Source: Vulcanimicrobium alpinum | Lineage (GTDB): Bacteria; Vulcanimicrobiota; Vulcanimicrobiia; Vulcanimicrobiales; Vulcanimicrobiaceae | Length of the DNA stretch: 64,000 bases | Direction of reading: 5' to 3' | Assembly: GCF_027923555.1 (NCBI RefSeq) | Contig: NZ_AP025523.1 | Location: 1,240,001 to 1,304,000 of the forward strand | Shown here: in pieces, positions 6,305 to 18,931 of the stretch | Position numbering within the stretch: position 1 is the first letter of the stretch | Layout: every line of letters starts with the position of its first letter | Notes under the pieces: model-generated | What the model was told of the DNA's origin: nothing | Databases searched by the model: none | Seen by the model: the letters and a program-made list of their open reading frames with translations, nothing else | Translations under genes and position numbers: made by a program

Positions 6305-7582
6305 ATGAGAATCCTCGTCGTCGGCGGCGGCGCCCGCGAAGATGCGTTGTCGTGGCGGCTTGCCGCGTCGCCCTCGTGCGACGCGCTTTTCCACGCGCCG
6401 GGCAACGCCGGCACCGCGAGCCGCGGTGAAAACTGGAGCGACGTCGCCGCGACCGACGCGCGCACGCTCGTGCGCCGCGCACAAGAGGCGCGGATCGACC
6501 TCGTCGTGCTGGGACCGGAGACGGCGATCGCCGCTGGTGTCGGCGACAAACTGCGCGATGCGGGGATCGCGGTGTTCGGACCCAATCGCGGCGGCGGGCG
6601 CCTTGAAACGAGCAAGGTCTTCGCGAAGCGCTTCATGGAGCGCCACGGCATCCCGAGTGCGCGCTTTCGCGTCGTGCACAATCTCGATCAAGCGCGGCGC
6701 GCACTCGAGGCGTGGAGCGGCGCCGCGGTGGTGAAAGCCGACGGACTGGCCGCCGGCAAAGGCGTCGTCGTGTGCGATGGTGCGGCCGACGCGCTGACGG
6801 TGCTCACCGGCTGGTATACCGGGAACGCGATCCCCGGCGGCGGTCAGGACGTCGTGATCGAACAGCGGCTCGCGGGCCGAGAAGTCAGCGTGTTCGCGAT
6901 CGCCGACGGGCGCGCGATGGTTCCGATCGCCGCGGCATGCGATTACAAACGCGCCGGCGACGACGACAAGGGGCCCAATACCGGCGGGATGGGCGCGTAT
7001 TCGCCGCCGGCGCTCTTCGGCGACGACCTGCTCGACGTCGTGCGGGAACGCGTCGTCGCGCCGGCGTTGCGCGGGCTGCTCGCCGAGGGCGAAGAGTACC
7101 GCGGCGTGCTCTACTGCGGGCTGATGATGACCGACGACGGCCCCTACGTAATCGAGTTCAATGCCCGGTTTGGCGATCCCGAGACGCAAGTGCTCGTGCC
7201 GCGCGTCAACGGCGACTTCGCACGTTATCTGAAATCCGCCGCCGACGGCGCGCTCGAGATCGACGCCGCGACGTGGTCGGACGACGCGTGCGTCGGCGTC
7301 GTGCTGGCGACGTCGCGCTATCCGTACGAGAACACGCCGGTGCGCGGCCTTCCCGCCGAACTCGGTCTGGCAGGCGACGTCGTTGCATTCTGGGGGACGT
7401 CGTCGCGCGAGGACGACGGCACGGTGACGTCGCCGGGCGGCCGCGTCCTCACGGTTGCCGCGCGCGGCGCGAACGTCGGCGTCGCGCGCGCGCACGCGTA
7501 TGCCGCAATCGACGGTCTGAAGGCGCGGTTTCCGAGCGGGACGCCGCTCGCGTACCGCTCCGACATCGCGCGCCTGCCGTAA
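6305..7582 (+). CDS. purD: Phosphoribosylamine-glycine ligase
   Basis: GAR synthetase, second step of de novo purine synthesis: phosphoribosylamine, glycine and ATP give GAR. It is full length (425 residues). The N-terminal domain starts RILVVGGGAREDALSWRL, the ATP-grasp domain shows VVKADGLAAGKGVVVC and the GPNTGGMGAYSPP signature, and the metal/ATP site ends in IEFNARFGDPETQ. The C-terminal domain completes the enzyme. It lies downstream of an unrelated hydrolase and is convergent with a membrane-protein gene. Other purine genes (guaA, purF, purM, purN) lie within 12 kb either side, but not in one operon. Confidence 0.96.
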   Translation: MRILVVGGGAREDALSWRLAASPSCDALFHAPGNAGTASRGENWSDVAATDARTLVRRAQEARIDLVVLGPETAIAAGVGDKLRDAGIAVFGPNRGGGRLETSKVFAKRFMERHGIPSARFRVVHNLDQARRALEAWSGAAVVKADGLAAGKGVVVCDGAADALTVLTGWYTGNAIPGGGQDVVIEQRLAGREVSVFAIADGRAMVPIAAACDYKRAGDDDKGPNTGGMGAYSPPALFGDDLLDVVRERVVAPALRGLLAEGEEYRGVLYCGLMMTDDGPYVIEFNARFGDPETQVLVPRVNGDFARYLKSAADGALEIDAATWSDDACVGVVLATSRYPYENTPVRGLPAELGLAGDVVAFWGTSSREDDGTVTSPGGRVLTVAARGANVGVARAHAYAAIDGLKARFPSGTPLAYRSDIARLP

Positions 7583-9662: not shown

Positions 9663-11108
9663 ATGGCGCGAGCCTACGACGAGCAAGCGGAACAGCCGGC
9701 CGGTGACGTCCTGCACGAAGCGTGCGGAATCGCCGGCGTCTACGCGCCGGGCGATGACGTCGCCCGGCTCGTCTATTTCGGCCTGTACGCCTTGCAGCAC
9801 CGCGGCCAGGAGAGCGCCGGGATCGCGGTCGGCGACGGCCGCGCGATCGACAGCCATCGCGAGATGGGGCTCATCACGGGCGTCTTCGACGAGGAGATCC
9901 TCGGCCGGCTGCGCGGCGACGTCGCGATCGGGCACACGCGCTACTCGACCACCGGCAGTTCGATCGTCGTCAACGCGCAGCCGTTCATCGAAGAGTCCGA
10001 TCTGGGCACGTTCGCGTTCGGGCACAACGGCAACCTGACCAACGCCGACGACATCGCGGCGATGCTCCCCGACGACGTGCGCCTCACCGCAACCTCCGAC
10101 TCGGAGATTCTCGCGAAGTTCATCGCGCGCGCACCGGGCGCGACGTGGGTGGAGAAGATCAAGGCTGCGATGCGCGTCGCCGAAGGCGCGTACTCCGTCG
10201 TGATGTGCACGCGCGACACCGTCTTCGGGTTCCGCGATCCGTGGGGCGTGCGGCCGCTCTGCATCGGGACTTACGGCGATTCGGGGTACATGATCGCCTC
10301 GGAGTCGTGCGCGCTCGCGACCGTCGGCGCACACTATCTGCGCGAGATCGCCGCGGGCGAAGTCGTCGCGATCCACGCGCGCGGGATTCGCACCGAGCAT
10401 ACCGAGGTGGTGAAACCGCCGTCGCTGTGCATGTTCGAGTACATCTACTTCGCGCGGCCCGACTCGGTGCTCAGCGGACGGTCGATCTACATGGCGCGTT
10501 ACGAGATGGGCCGAGCGCTCGCGCGCCAGCATCCCGCCGACGCCGACGTCGTGATGGCGATCCCCGACAGCGCGATCCCCGGCGGAATCGGCTACGCCGC
10601 CGAGAGCGGTCTGCCGTACGTCGAAGGGCTCATCAAGAACCGCTACATCGGGCGCACGTTCATCTCGCCCGATCAGAAGATGCGCAGTCAAGGCGTGCGT
10701 CTGAAATTCAATCCGGTCGTCGAGAACTTGCGCGGACAGCGCGTCGTCGTCGTCGACGACTCGATCGTGCGCGGCACGACGACGCCGCGCATCGTCTCGC
10801 TGCTGCGCGACGTCGGCGTGCGCGAAGTGCACCTGCGCATCACCTCGCCGCCGATCGTCCACCCGTGCTACCTCGGCGTCGACATGGCGTCGTACGCGGA
10901 ACTGATCGCCGCCAACCTGAGCGTCGAGCAGATCTGCGAGAACGTCGGCGCGGATTCGCTCGGCTACTTGAGCATCGAGAATCTGGTGGCGTCGACGGGG
11001 CGCGAGCGTCGCGATTTCTGCCTAGGATGCCTGAACGGGCGCTATCCGAGCGTCCCGGCGGTCTCGCACGGCGTCCAAGCCGATATGCAGCCCGCCCTCA
11101 AGGGCTGA
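9663..11108 (+). CDS. purF: Amidophosphoribosyltransferase
   Basis: First committed step of purine synthesis: PRPP and glutamine give phosphoribosylamine. At 481 residues it is full length and of the Bacillus type, with a propeptide removed before the nucleophile C21 (EACGIAGVYAP) and four cysteines for a 4Fe-4S cluster (in SLCMFEYIYF, VHPCYLG and FCLGCLNG). The PRPP loop is VVVVDDSIVRGTT. The last 11 bases overlap tail to tail with the minus-strand small-protein operon. The product of purF is the substrate of purD, encoded 2 kb upstream. Confidence 0.97.
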   Translation: MARAYDEQAEQPAGDVLHEACGIAGVYAPGDDVARLVYFGLYALQHRGQESAGIAVGDGRAIDSHREMGLITGVFDEEILGRLRGDVAIGHTRYSTTGSSIVVNAQPFIEESDLGTFAFGHNGNLTNADDIAAMLPDDVRLTATSDSEILAKFIARAPGATWVEKIKAAMRVAEGAYSVVMCTRDTVFGFRDPWGVRPLCIGTYGDSGYMIASESCALATVGAHYLREIAAGEVVAIHARGIRTEHTEVVKPPSLCMFEYIYFARPDSVLSGRSIYMARYEMGRALARQHPADADVVMAIPDSAIPGGIGYAAESGLPYVEGLIKNRYIGRTFISPDQKMRSQGVRLKFNPVVENLRGQRVVVVDDSIVRGTTTPRIVSLLRDVGVREVHLRITSPPIVHPCYLGVDMASYAELIAANLSVEQICENVGADSLGYLSIENLVASTGRERRDFCLGCLNGRYPSVPAVSHGVQADMQPALKG

Positions 11109-16207: not shown

Positions 16208-17245
16208 ATGACCACGAATTCTTCCGGAGACGACGCCTACGCCCGCGCCGGCGTGAACATCGATGCCGGCAACCTGGCCGTGCAGAAATACCGGGACGTG
16301 ACGTCGGGTTGGACGCACCCCGACCAGCTCGGTTCCCTCGGAAACTTCAGCGGTCTTTTCCGCCTGCCGGGCGATGCGACACGGGCCTTGGTCGGTTCGG
16401 CCGACGGGGTGGGAACGAAGATTCTGATCGCGGCGGCGGTGAAACGCTACGACACCGTCGGTGCCGACCTCGTCAACCACTGCGTGAACGACATCCTCGT
16501 CACCGGCGCCGAGCCGCTGTTCTTCCTCGACTATCTGGCGGTCGGCAAGCTCGACCCGCACGTCGCGAGCCTCATCGTCGCCGGCGTGCATCGCGCGTGC
16601 CGCGAGAATCATTGCGCGCTGCTCGGCGGCGAGACGGCGGAGATGCCGGGCGTCTACCGTCCCGATCACTTCGATTTGGCCGGCACGATCGTGGGGATGG
16701 TTGAGCTCGCGGCGATCCCCGATCCGAACCGCGTGCAGCCGGGCGACGCGATCGTCGGCCTGCCGGCGGTGGGTCTGCACACCAACGGATACACGCTGGC
16801 GCGTGCGCTGATCCCCGAGGACGAGTACGGCGCGCCGTTCGGCATGGGGACGTTCGCCGACGCGCTGCTCGCGCCGCATCCCTCGTATCTGCAGCAGGTG
16901 CGCGCGATGCGCGCCGTCGCCGACGTGAAATCGATGGCGCACATCACCGGCGGCGGCCTGCTCGAGAACGTGCCGCGCACGCTCCCCGATCACGCCGCGG
17001 CGGTCTTCGAACAAACGCGCTGGGACGTGCCGCCGATCATGGCGGAACTGGTGCGGCGCGGGAATCTGCAGCACGAGGAATGCTATCGCACGCTCAACAT
17101 GGGCGTCGGCTACACGCTCGTCATTCCGATCACCGACGTCGACGCTGCGCTTGCGGCGGCGCCGGGCGCTCGCGTCATCGGTTTCGTGCAGCCGCGACGC
17201 GACGGCGAGCCGCGCGTCGTCGTGCACCCCGCACGCACCGCGTAG
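16208..17245 (+). CDS. purM: Phosphoribosylformylglycinamidine cyclo-ligase
   Basis: AIR synthetase, fifth step of purine synthesis, closing the imidazole ring with ATP. It is full length at 345 residues. Signatures are YARAGVNIDAGNLAVQKY at the start, VGSADGVGTKI, VNHCVNDILVTGAEPLFFLDY, LLGGETAEMPGVY and HITGGGLLENVPR. The PurN fusion gene starts 8 bases after its stop, so purM, purN and the DsbA-like gene form one operon. Confidence 0.97.
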   Translation: MTTNSSGDDAYARAGVNIDAGNLAVQKYRDVTSGWTHPDQLGSLGNFSGLFRLPGDATRALVGSADGVGTKILIAAAVKRYDTVGADLVNHCVNDILVTGAEPLFFLDYLAVGKLDPHVASLIVAGVHRACRENHCALLGGETAEMPGVYRPDHFDLAGTIVGMVELAAIPDPNRVQPGDAIVGLPAVGLHTNGYTLARALIPEDEYGAPFGMGTFADALLAPHPSYLQQVRAMRAVADVKSMAHITGGGLLENVPRTLPDHAAAVFEQTRWDVPPIMAELVRRGNLQHEECYRTLNMGVGYTLVIPITDVDAALAAAPGARVIGFVQPRRDGEPRVVVHPARTA

Positions 17246-17253
17246 CGCGACGC

Positions 17254-18378
17254 GTGCCGCACAACCTGCTTGCCGCGCTCGACGACGAGCGCTACGGCGC
17301 GGCCGGGCTCGCGCGCGCGCACGACGCCGCGGTGCGCGCCGGGTACACGCTGCAGCGCGTCGACGGGCCCGACGACCTGCTCGCCGCGTGGATCGATCTG
17401 CAGTGGCCGGGGTCGTGGTGGTCGTCGGAGGCACGCGCCGGCAGCGCGTGGGTCGCGCACCGCGACGGTGCGATCGCGGGGTTCGCGGCCTTCGGTGCGC
17501 GCGGGCTGCGCTTTCCGTGGCTGCGGCGGTGGCACGATCGCACGGACGTCGGCATCTTCGGGCCCTACGGCGTCGGCGCGGCGGATCGCGGACGCGGTGC
17601 CGGCGAGCCGCTGCTGACGGCCGCCTTGTGCGGTCTGCGCGAAGCGGGCTTCGCGTTCGCGCTCATCCCCGCGGTCGACGGGGCGCCGCTCATCGATCTC
17701 TACACGATGCGCACCGCTGCGGCGGTCGTCGACACCTACGCCTACGACGACGGACGCAGGCGCCGTGCGACGATCCTGGCCTCGGGCGCCGGGACGAACG
17801 CGCGCAACGTGATGGAGCGCGTGCGTGCAGGCACGCTGCCCCTCGAACTCGCGGCGCTGGTCAGCGATCGTCCCGGAGCCGGCGCGCTCGACGCGGCGCG
17901 CGAACGCGACATCCCGGCGATCGCGCTCGCATGGGACCGGGAGACGGAGACGCGGGCCGCCTTCGACGCGCGCATCATCGAGGCGGTGGCCGCGACCCGG
18001 CCCGAACTCGTGCTGCTCTTGGGCTGGATGCATCTGCTGCCGGCGGCGTTCCTCGAGCGCTTCCCCGAGACGATCAACCTGCATCCGTCGTTTCTGCCGC
18101 TCGATCCCGCGGCCGACGAGGTCCTCGCGCCCGACGGCACGACGATCCCCGCGCTGCGCGGCGCGCATGCGCTGCGCGATGCGCTGCGCGCCGGCGTCGC
18201 ATGGACCGGCGCGACCGTGCACTACGTGACCACGGCGACCGATCGCGGGAGCGTGCTCGTGCGCATCCCGCTCGCGGTGGGTACGGTGACCTCGGAGACG
18301 GAGCTGCGCGAACGCGTACGCCCGGTTGAGTTTGCAGCGGTCGCCGGAGCGATCCGCCGCTGGAGTTTCGAACGCTGA
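17254..18378 (+). CDS. purN: GNAT-like domain fused to phosphoribosylglycinamide formyltransferase
   Basis: A 374-residue two-domain protein. Residues about 165-374 are PurN, which transfers a formyl group from 10-formyl-THF to GAR: ILASGAGTNARNVMERV binds the nucleotide, INLHPSFLP carries the catalytic Asn and His, and VHYVTTATDRGSV carries the catalytic Asp. An insertion of about 15 residues (PAADEVLAPDGTTIPALRG) lengthens the loop after HPSFLP. Residues 1-160 look like a GNAT acetyltransferase, with FGPYGVGAADRGRGAGEPLL giving the R-G-x-G-x-G acetyl-CoA loop. The frame is continuous with no internal start that would separate the domains. GTG 17254 follows purM by 8 bases. PurN alone is normally about 200 residues, so the fusion is unusual. 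Confidence 0.88.
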   Translation: MPHNLLAALDDERYGAAGLARAHDAAVRAGYTLQRVDGPDDLLAAWIDLQWPGSWWSSEARAGSAWVAHRDGAIAGFAAFGARGLRFPWLRRWHDRTDVGIFGPYGVGAADRGRGAGEPLLTAALCGLREAGFAFALIPAVDGAPLIDLYTMRTAAAVVDTYAYDDGRRRRATILASGAGTNARNVMERVRAGTLPLELAALVSDRPGAGALDAARERDIPAIALAWDRETETRAAFDARIIEAVAATRPELVLLLGWMHLLPAAFLERFPETINLHPSFLPLDPAADEVLAPDGTTIPALRGAHALRDALRAGVAWTGATVHYVTTATDRGSVLVRIPLAVGTVTSETELRERVRPVEFAAVAGAIRRWSFER

Positions 18379-18379
18379 G

Positions 18380-18931
18380 ATGAACGACGACAGCCTCACT
18401 CGCCTGGCGGTTCCGGTGAACGACGACGATCACGTGCGCGGACCGGCCGACGCGCCGGTGACGCTGGTCGAGTACGGCGATTTCGAGTGTCCCTTCTGCG
18501 GCGTCGCATACGCGGCGATCAAGGAGTTCGAGCGGCGCTATCCCGCCGCGCTGCGGGTCGTGTTCCGCAACTTTCCGCTCGCGATGCATCCGCACGCGCA
18601 AAGCGCCGCCGAGGCCGCGGAGTTCGCAGCCGACGGCGGCCGCTTCTGGGAGATGCACGATATGCTCTACGAGCACCAGCGGCAGCTCGACGTGCCGCAC
18701 CTGCTGCACTACGCGCGCGACTTAGGGCTCGACGCCGCGGCGCTCGACGAAGCGCTGCGTTCGCAGACGTACCGCCCGATCGTCGAAGAGAGTAAGGAAG
18801 GCGGAGAGGAGAGCGAGATCCCGGGAACGCCGGCGCTCTTTCTCAACGGCGTGCTCTTCGAAGAAGACCCGACGGTCGAGAACCTCGCGCACGCCGTCGA
18901 GTGGATTCTCGAACACGGGGGGACGGCGTAA
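18380..18931 (+). CDS. DsbA-family thioredoxin-like protein
   Basis: A 183-residue thioredoxin-fold protein with the DsbA-type active site FECPFCGVAY and the cis-proline loop SEIPGTPALFLNG. This family includes DsbA, DsbG-like and FrnE-like oxidoreductases. No signal peptide is present from ATG 18380, so it may act in the cytosol. The frame extends upstream to 18326 but that would overlap purN by more than 50 bases. It starts one base after the purN stop and is probably the last gene of that operon. Confidence 0.88.
   Translation: MNDDSLTRLAVPVNDDDHVRGPADAPVTLVEYGDFECPFCGVAYAAIKEFERRYPAALRVVFRNFPLAMHPHAQSAAEAAEFAADGGRFWEMHDMLYEHQRQLDVPHLLHYARDLGLDAAALDEALRSQTYRPIVEESKEGGEESEIPGTPALFLNGVLFEEDPTVENLAHAVEWILEHGGTA

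Follow-up and report, generated by a model that had tools for sequence, protein, structure and literature searches.

A predicted GNAT acetyltransferase domain fused to PurN in Vulcanimicrobium alpinum and its family

In Vulcanimicrobium alpinum, the purine enzyme PurN is encoded in one reading frame with an N-terminal acetyltransferase domain of the GNAT type. The reading that we favour, and consider somewhat probable, is that of a bifunctional protein, i.e., an ordinary GAR transformylase joined to an independently selected acetyltransferase which probably acts outside purine synthesis. The C-terminal half would perform the ordinary PurN chemistry, predicted as the formation of FGAR from 10-formyl-THF and GAR. 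The N-terminal half would be a GNAT enzyme that uses acetyl-CoA or another acyl-CoA to acylate an amine of its own, probably one outside purine synthesis, and would descend from a free-standing GNAT still encoded at non-purine loci in sister families. We infer the catalytic activity of the GNAT half, the kind of its acceptor and the independence of the two activities.

The fusion gene is located at positions 17254-18378 on the forward strand of the window, i.e., the whole stretch of 64,000 nucleotides that was analysed. It starts with GTG at 17254, its stop codon ends at 18378, and it encodes 374 amino acids; the coordinates given by an earlier sequence-only reading are correct. Directly upstream, purM (16208-17245, forward strand, orthologous cluster c4 in sister genomes) leaves a gap of 8 bases between its stop codon at 17245 and the start of the fusion gene. 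The same window carries purD (6305-7582; TIGR00877, 402 bits) and purF (9663-11108; TIGR01134, 502 bits). The downstream neighbour, outside the fusion, is a DsbA/thioredoxin-like gene (18380-18931, forward strand; PF13462 1.6e-23, PF01323 1.8e-16). The genome consists of a single contig of 3,508,363 bases. An upstream start at 17080 inside purM, which would give a frame of 432 amino acids, was rejected, since homology to relatives starts at about residue 4. That two genes had been joined by a frameshift or by mis-assembly was rejected as well, because the identical frame recurs throughout the family; both halves share one frame in each of 30 loci from the family that gave a GNAT-PurN match. 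With regard to other contexts, a defence gene was rejected, since PADLOC gave no match, and so was a plasmid-borne fusion, since none of the 578 matching plasmid records reaches 80% query coverage.

The PurN half comprises residues 170-374 (17761-18375, forward strand; PF00551 4.6e-29). Its model superimposes on solved GAR transformylases, with Z 27.0 and rmsd 1.9 over 195 residues for 3auf and Z 26.2 for human GART, and a sequence search of the PDB likewise places GART structures on top (3av3, 1.2e-23). The catalytic residues N275-x-H277 (18076-18084, forward strand) and D330 (18241-18243) are invariant in 57 of 57 aligned sequences and presumably correspond to the triad N106, H108 and D144 of E. 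coli PurN. Only two PF00551 sites were found in the V. alpinum genome, namely the fusion and a protein at 1156642-1157157, which we read as Fmt. No PurT was found over the cut-off in this genome, the best profile match scoring 188 bits vs 502. The fusion is thus the sole candidate for a GAR transformylase, and its PurN half would have to be the working enzyme if purines are made de novo.

The GNAT half comprises residues 1-161 (17254-17736, forward strand) and is followed by an interdomain linker of residues ~162-169 (17737-17760, forward strand), delimited by the secondary structure of the model, whose length varies among relatives. For the isolated V. alpinum domain the match to PF00583 is borderline, with an E-value of 5e-4 and 20.8 bits vs a cut-off of 20.7. 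Every one of 39 relatives in the alignment has a PF00583 match at E<=0.1, the best being 2.8e-11. When modelled alone by AlphaFold, the GNAT half reaches a pLDDT of 96.3, and its best fold match by VIA-align is 5kf2 (Z 14.2, rmsd 2.9 over 151 residues, 15% identity). Foldseek returned 45 matches at E<=0.001, and most among the matches listed are of the GNAT, FemX or MprF type. The claim of the sequence-only reading that an N-terminal domain of about 160 residues carries a GNAT fold is therefore well founded, both in the profile matches of its relatives and in the predicted structure with its likeness to solved GNATs; the acetyl-CoA loop that it had noticed is the segment R112 to G117.

This loop, RGRGAG (residues 112-117), presumably holds the pyrophosphate and lies, together with the stretch GIFGPYGV (residues 100-107), at 17551-17604 on the forward strand; we take the two to be the acetyl-CoA binding signature, and they are conserved in the fused relatives. 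Among 49 fused sequences, G106 and G117 are found in all, G103 and P104 in 48, and R112 in 48, the other one having Q. Motif A, which we take to read R/Q-x-x-G-x-G/A, is present as RGRGAG; its R/Q and its last G occur in 49/49, its first G only in 26/49. Outside the motif, W46, D48 and S57 are invariant in all 49 intact fused sequences. These counts describe the intact majority: the underlying alignments, A3 and A4, hold 49 and 48 of the 61 two-domain loci together with V. alpinum (A3 also includes 7 unfused PurNs) and leave out two decayed sequences (L127 and L128, from genomes G032 and G031) and 10 or 11 others that are partial or unused. A smaller alignment, A2, holds 21 of the 28 full-length fused references. 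As both domains retain a full motif set of their own, the formyl/acetyl-handling hybrid site considered in the sequence-only reading is unlikely.

Further clues come from the nearest solved relatives. In a profile search of the GNAT half vs solved structures, a clostridial glucosamine N-acetyltransferase ranks first (5.5e-9), followed by mycothiol synthase (2.3e-6) and by a fungal beta-N-acetylglucosaminidase, matched in its GNAT region (0.0029). The clostridial enzyme, from Clostridium acetobutylicum (5kf1, 5kf2, 5kga), is presumably GlmA, a glucosamine/glucosaminide N-acetyltransferase. It is the top match in profile and fold alike, the fold match being to its C-terminal GNAT; GlmA is a tandem GNAT, whereas the fusion has one GNAT domain of 161 residues. 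Tyr297 of GlmA corresponds to Y150 of the fusion, with Y in 47/49 sequences. The catalytic Asp287, numbered after the title of the PDB mutant entry D287N, is replaced by Pro139 (P 42, A 4 and G 3 among 49). From this comparison the GNAT half should work like the GNAT of the GlmA group, which does not imply action on glucosamine. Mycothiol synthase MshD (TIGR03448, 1ozp), a tandem GNAT with a different acceptor, shows weak profile similarity to 18/39 members (best 1.2e-4) and a fold match of Z 12.1.

The likeness to glucosamine N-acetyltransferases, by profile and by fold, is also what could be put forward for a role in purine chemistry itself, where the GNAT would acetylate a purine intermediate or a related amino-sugar phosphate, i.e., GAR or phosphoribosylamine. 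The sharing of one gene with purN and the adjoining purM fit this proposal. However, a Pro stands where the clostridial enzyme has its catalytic D287, N-acetyl-GAR would presumably be a dead end, and free orthologues of the domain are encoded outside purine clusters, so that we regard acetylation of a purine precursor as very improbable.

The distribution of the fusion was determined by searching 98 genomes with the entire protein as query and 149 genomes from the phylum with its GNAT half. In the following, f1 denotes the own family (Vulcanimicrobiaceae), f2 a sister family, and f3 relatives from the same class. Within f1, the GNAT domain was found in 87 of 99 listed genomes and in 34 of 38 genera, which answers the check proposed in the sequence-only reading, namely whether related genomes share the fusion; 27 further genomes without a match stand outside the list and were taken as more distant. 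Of the 30 f1 loci with both halves in one frame, one (L009) is truncated at a contig end. A scan of genome contigs yielded 80 loci, comprising 61 with both halves, one without GNAT (L113, the contig of G009), 11 unfused PurNs mostly titled Eremiobacterota or "bacterium", and 7 unfused PurNs from Helicobacter and a gammaproteobacterium. The scan used patterns of the class PurN (LLLGWMH and N-x-HP-x-x-LP), by which a GNAT on a GFMR-type PurN in other phyla would escape, and it overlaps in species with the set of 30 loci, so that the two are not independent. The fusion occurs in records under the titles Eremiobacterota, Eremiobacteria, Vulcanimicrobiota, WPS-2, UBP12 or bacterium. Two records titled Rhodospirillales (L100 and L115) also carry it, at 46% identity, and are probably mislabelled Vulcanimicrobiota MAGs.

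Twelve listed f1 genomes gave no GNAT match. Seven of them (G001, G009, G022, G031, G035, G037 and G049) were searched again with TIGR00639, leaving G109, G119, G120, G121 and G133 aside. In G009 and G031 a PurN was found at the purM locus, and G037 gave no match. Judged by partial matching and by frame length, the other matches resemble other formyltransferases; we therefore read these genomes, apart from G009 and G031, as cases of missing sequence rather than of loss. The sequence-only reading had called the joining of a GNAT to PurN a non-standard architecture, and we agree. We found no description of a PurN fused to a GNAT or another acetyltransferase in openly licensed PMC text, and regard GNAT-PurN as a new domain architecture.

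In f2 and f3, PurN is a separate gene. The called upstream neighbour is purM in 10 of 13 loci, mostly with pepA beyond (clusters c0, c4 and c1), and in the other three a gene was missed by the caller or the contig ends. The order purM-purN in these families is thus that of V. alpinum minus the GNAT. The orthologous GNAT is free-standing in all four f2 genomes and in 10 of 14 f3 genomes. In f2, it lies in each case beside a family-5 solute-binding protein (SBP_bac_5) and EPSP synthase (aroA). In f3, two types of neighbourhood occur, one with GH125, AstE/AspA-type, GAF and MFS-like genes, the other with a cation-efflux gene and with genes that by eye resemble SecD/SecF. None of the genes called around the 14 free GNATs was recognised as a purine gene. 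In seven f3 loci (L036, L037, L039-L041, L044 and L045), the free GNAT adjoins a small gene (cluster c3), an AstE/AspA-type deacylase and a GH125 mannosidase. One tested member of cluster c3 gave no Pfam match. These neighbours, which are often co-directional, are a possible clue to the acceptor of the free GNAT.

In a GNAT tree, computed by a quick method with no bootstrap, the 30 fused rows form one clade with an SH-aLRT of 97, next to an f3 clade (96) and an f2 clade (94). A more distant single-domain GNAT from family f5 (L067 in genome G080, 1151-1886), which adjoins a gene that looks radical-SAM-like by eye, served as outgroup. The fused and free domains were also aligned with each other (alignment A1, with 26 fused GNATs and 13 of the 14 free ones; L032 was left out, as its reference ended early). 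As the fused GNATs form one clade and the free ones stand elsewhere, the simplest history is a single fusion in the ancestor of the family. Other GNAT matches in f1 are weak, with ~33-34% identity, and the gene therefore seems to have been moved and not copied. In this history, a free GNAT gene would have moved between purM and purN in the family ancestor, lost its stop codon and become fused in frame to purN, which would have subjected it to pur operon control.

The fusion has not been kept everywhere. In G009, which belongs to the same genus as V. alpinum, purM is followed at once by a PurN of 228 residues starting with VPHYDD (L062/L113, 2596-3279). This start combines three initial codons of the fused gene with the linker, i.e., an in-frame loss of ~160 codons, seen on one contig of 3,562 bases from a MAG that is 73% complete. 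In the PurN tree, G009 is nested inside the fused genus, beside G010 (95). G031 (L063) and G032 (L064), sister rows in the same tree (89), carry a GNAT-sized domain without the CoA motif R-x-x-x-x-G, which by its sequence is a decayed pseudo-enzyme domain. G036 has kept the CoA motif and lost the GP of the beta-4 signature. PurN is retained in all of G009, G031, G032 and G036, which shows that PurN can do without the GNAT, at least in those genomes.

The two decayed domains raise the question whether the GNAT might be a catalytically dead relic, held in frame before an essential gene, or an aid to folding or oligomerisation. Besides G031 and G032, such a proposal can draw on the consideration that a frame joined to an essential gene would be awkward to lose. 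In contrast, G117, G106, W46, D48 and S57 are invariant in the 49 fused relatives (the two decayed sequences left out), and dN/dS of the GNAT half is 0.13-0.27. Since the CoA motif has been kept over so many genera, we disfavour the dead relic and consider it quite unlikely.

Selection on the two halves was compared in closer relatives. For six pairs, dN/dS is 0.135, 0.221, 0.13, 0.247, 0.155 and 0.268 in the GNAT half and 0.133, 0.091, 0.14, 0.188, 0.212 and 0.245 in the PurN half; several of the underlying dS values lie near 1 and are rough. Purifying selection acts on the two halves with similar force. Over 351 pairs from 27 full fused sequences, mean pairwise identity is 49.5% for GNAT and 54.4% for PurN. 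The ratio of GNAT to PurN divergence amounts to 1.20 in the fused proteins (351 pairs); where the GNAT is free, it is 1.35 across 28 f3 pairs and 0.62 across six close f2 pairs. L009, L024 and L031, whose N-terminus is missing or diverged, do not enter the identity and divergence counts. The fused GNAT is held about as tightly as the free GNATs of f3, and this, together with the similar purifying selection, speaks for an activity of its own, in good agreement with the bifunctional reading.

Nevertheless, the domain has changed after the fusion. Where all 49 fused sequences have D48 and S57, the 14 free GNATs mostly show R and A (or H). In the free GNATs, in turn, Pro at position 143 and Phe at position 67 are invariant, two residues mostly absent from the fused ones, and fused GNATs have about three additional residues ahead of Tyr150. 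These fused-only residues and the longer stretch indicate that the acceptor site or the interface has shifted, and count against the simplest reading, that of an unchanged enzyme.

Another proposal is that the GNAT regulates PurN, i.e., that binding of acetyl-CoA or self-acetylation tunes the GAR transformylase to the carbon supply. Invariant residues particular to fused GNATs, the retention of the GNAT throughout the family, and the decayed yet retained domain in G031 and G032 are in line with such a role. The AlphaFold model of the full chain points in the same direction, reaching a pLDDT of 96.3 and a pTM of 0.93; at such a pTM, the position of two domains relative to each other is confidently predicted, which suggests a fixed packing. 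All of these points count against the bifunctional reading as well: retention in 87 of 99 family genomes is longer than simple hitch-hiking needs, the predicted packing is more than beads on a string, the fused-only residues point to a changed acceptor site or interface, and the decayed GNAT kept in G031 and G032 could mean a structural role. However, three observations speak against a regulator of PurN: the free orthologue in sister families lacks recognised purine neighbours, G009 lost the GNAT and keeps PurN, and the fused GNAT evolves much as the free one does. We consider regulation unlikely. Its special form, a built-in acetyl-CoA gauge that would couple the first folate-dependent purine step to carbon status by binding acetyl-CoA or by acetylating PurN, appears distinctly doubtful; in openly licensed PMC text, we found no description of such control for a purine enzyme.

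Known proteins with a GNAT beside another domain provide opposite precedents, either of which may apply to the fusion. RmNag, a fungal GH3 beta-N-acetylglucosaminidase with a C-terminal GNAT (4zm6, fold Z 13.4), likewise joins a GNAT to a metabolic enzyme. Its partner is a glycosidase acting on the product of the GNAT, and its GNAT is a tandem one, both unlike the fusion. The authors of the RmNag study speculate that the fused domains have merely a structural connection (PMC4680927). In fungal Ngs1, the GNAT is reported to be activated by its own sugar-binding partner domain, a coupling that gives a precedent for regulation (PMC5063960). On the whole, PurN regulation and purine chemistry are somewhat disfavoured as interpretations of the fusion.

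The sequence-only reading had further described a loop insertion beside the PurN active site as part of the unusual architecture. The insertion itself exists: 17 residues at about 284-301 (18103-18156, forward strand; PDGT...FRG) follow HPSFLPL in the alignment with PurNs from the phylum and from outside, and are absent from 7/7 outside PurNs (Helicobacter and a gammaproteobacterium). Its connection with the fusion did not hold, as it is present in all 16 unfused PurNs aligned from five families of the same phylum (L046-L061). The insertion is thus an older, separate feature, and its origin as a consequence of the fusion was rejected. The TIGR00639 score of the fusion is 118 bits and falls below the cut-off of 150.1, which is a naming threshold and not a biochemical feature. 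Three unfused PurNs from f2 and f3 also fall short (147, 131 and 123), so that the low score characterises the class and is no effect of the fusion. PurNs with the loop insertion from families f5, f12 and f9 pass (205, 185 and 202). The insertion as cause of the low score was rejected, because its removal raises the score only from 121 to 128. In a strand that presumably lines the folate pocket, PurNs of f1-f3 read GWMH (one f3 row GWMR) vs GFMR in outside PurNs. Judging from these sequence traits, the PurN of the class to which V. alpinum belongs seems somewhat unusual in itself.

From a biological point of view, this family of soil bacteria shows cleanly how a gene can be inserted and fused within a conserved operon, since unfused, fused, decayed and cleanly lost states are all found among relatives. 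If the two halves are uncoupled, the fusion is a warning for annotation, since the gene is likely named PurN only and the acetyltransferase overlooked; where the PurN cut-off is missed, it may be named merely formyltransferase. If the halves are coupled, they would represent a new tie between purine synthesis and acetyl-CoA, in an organism that is in culture.
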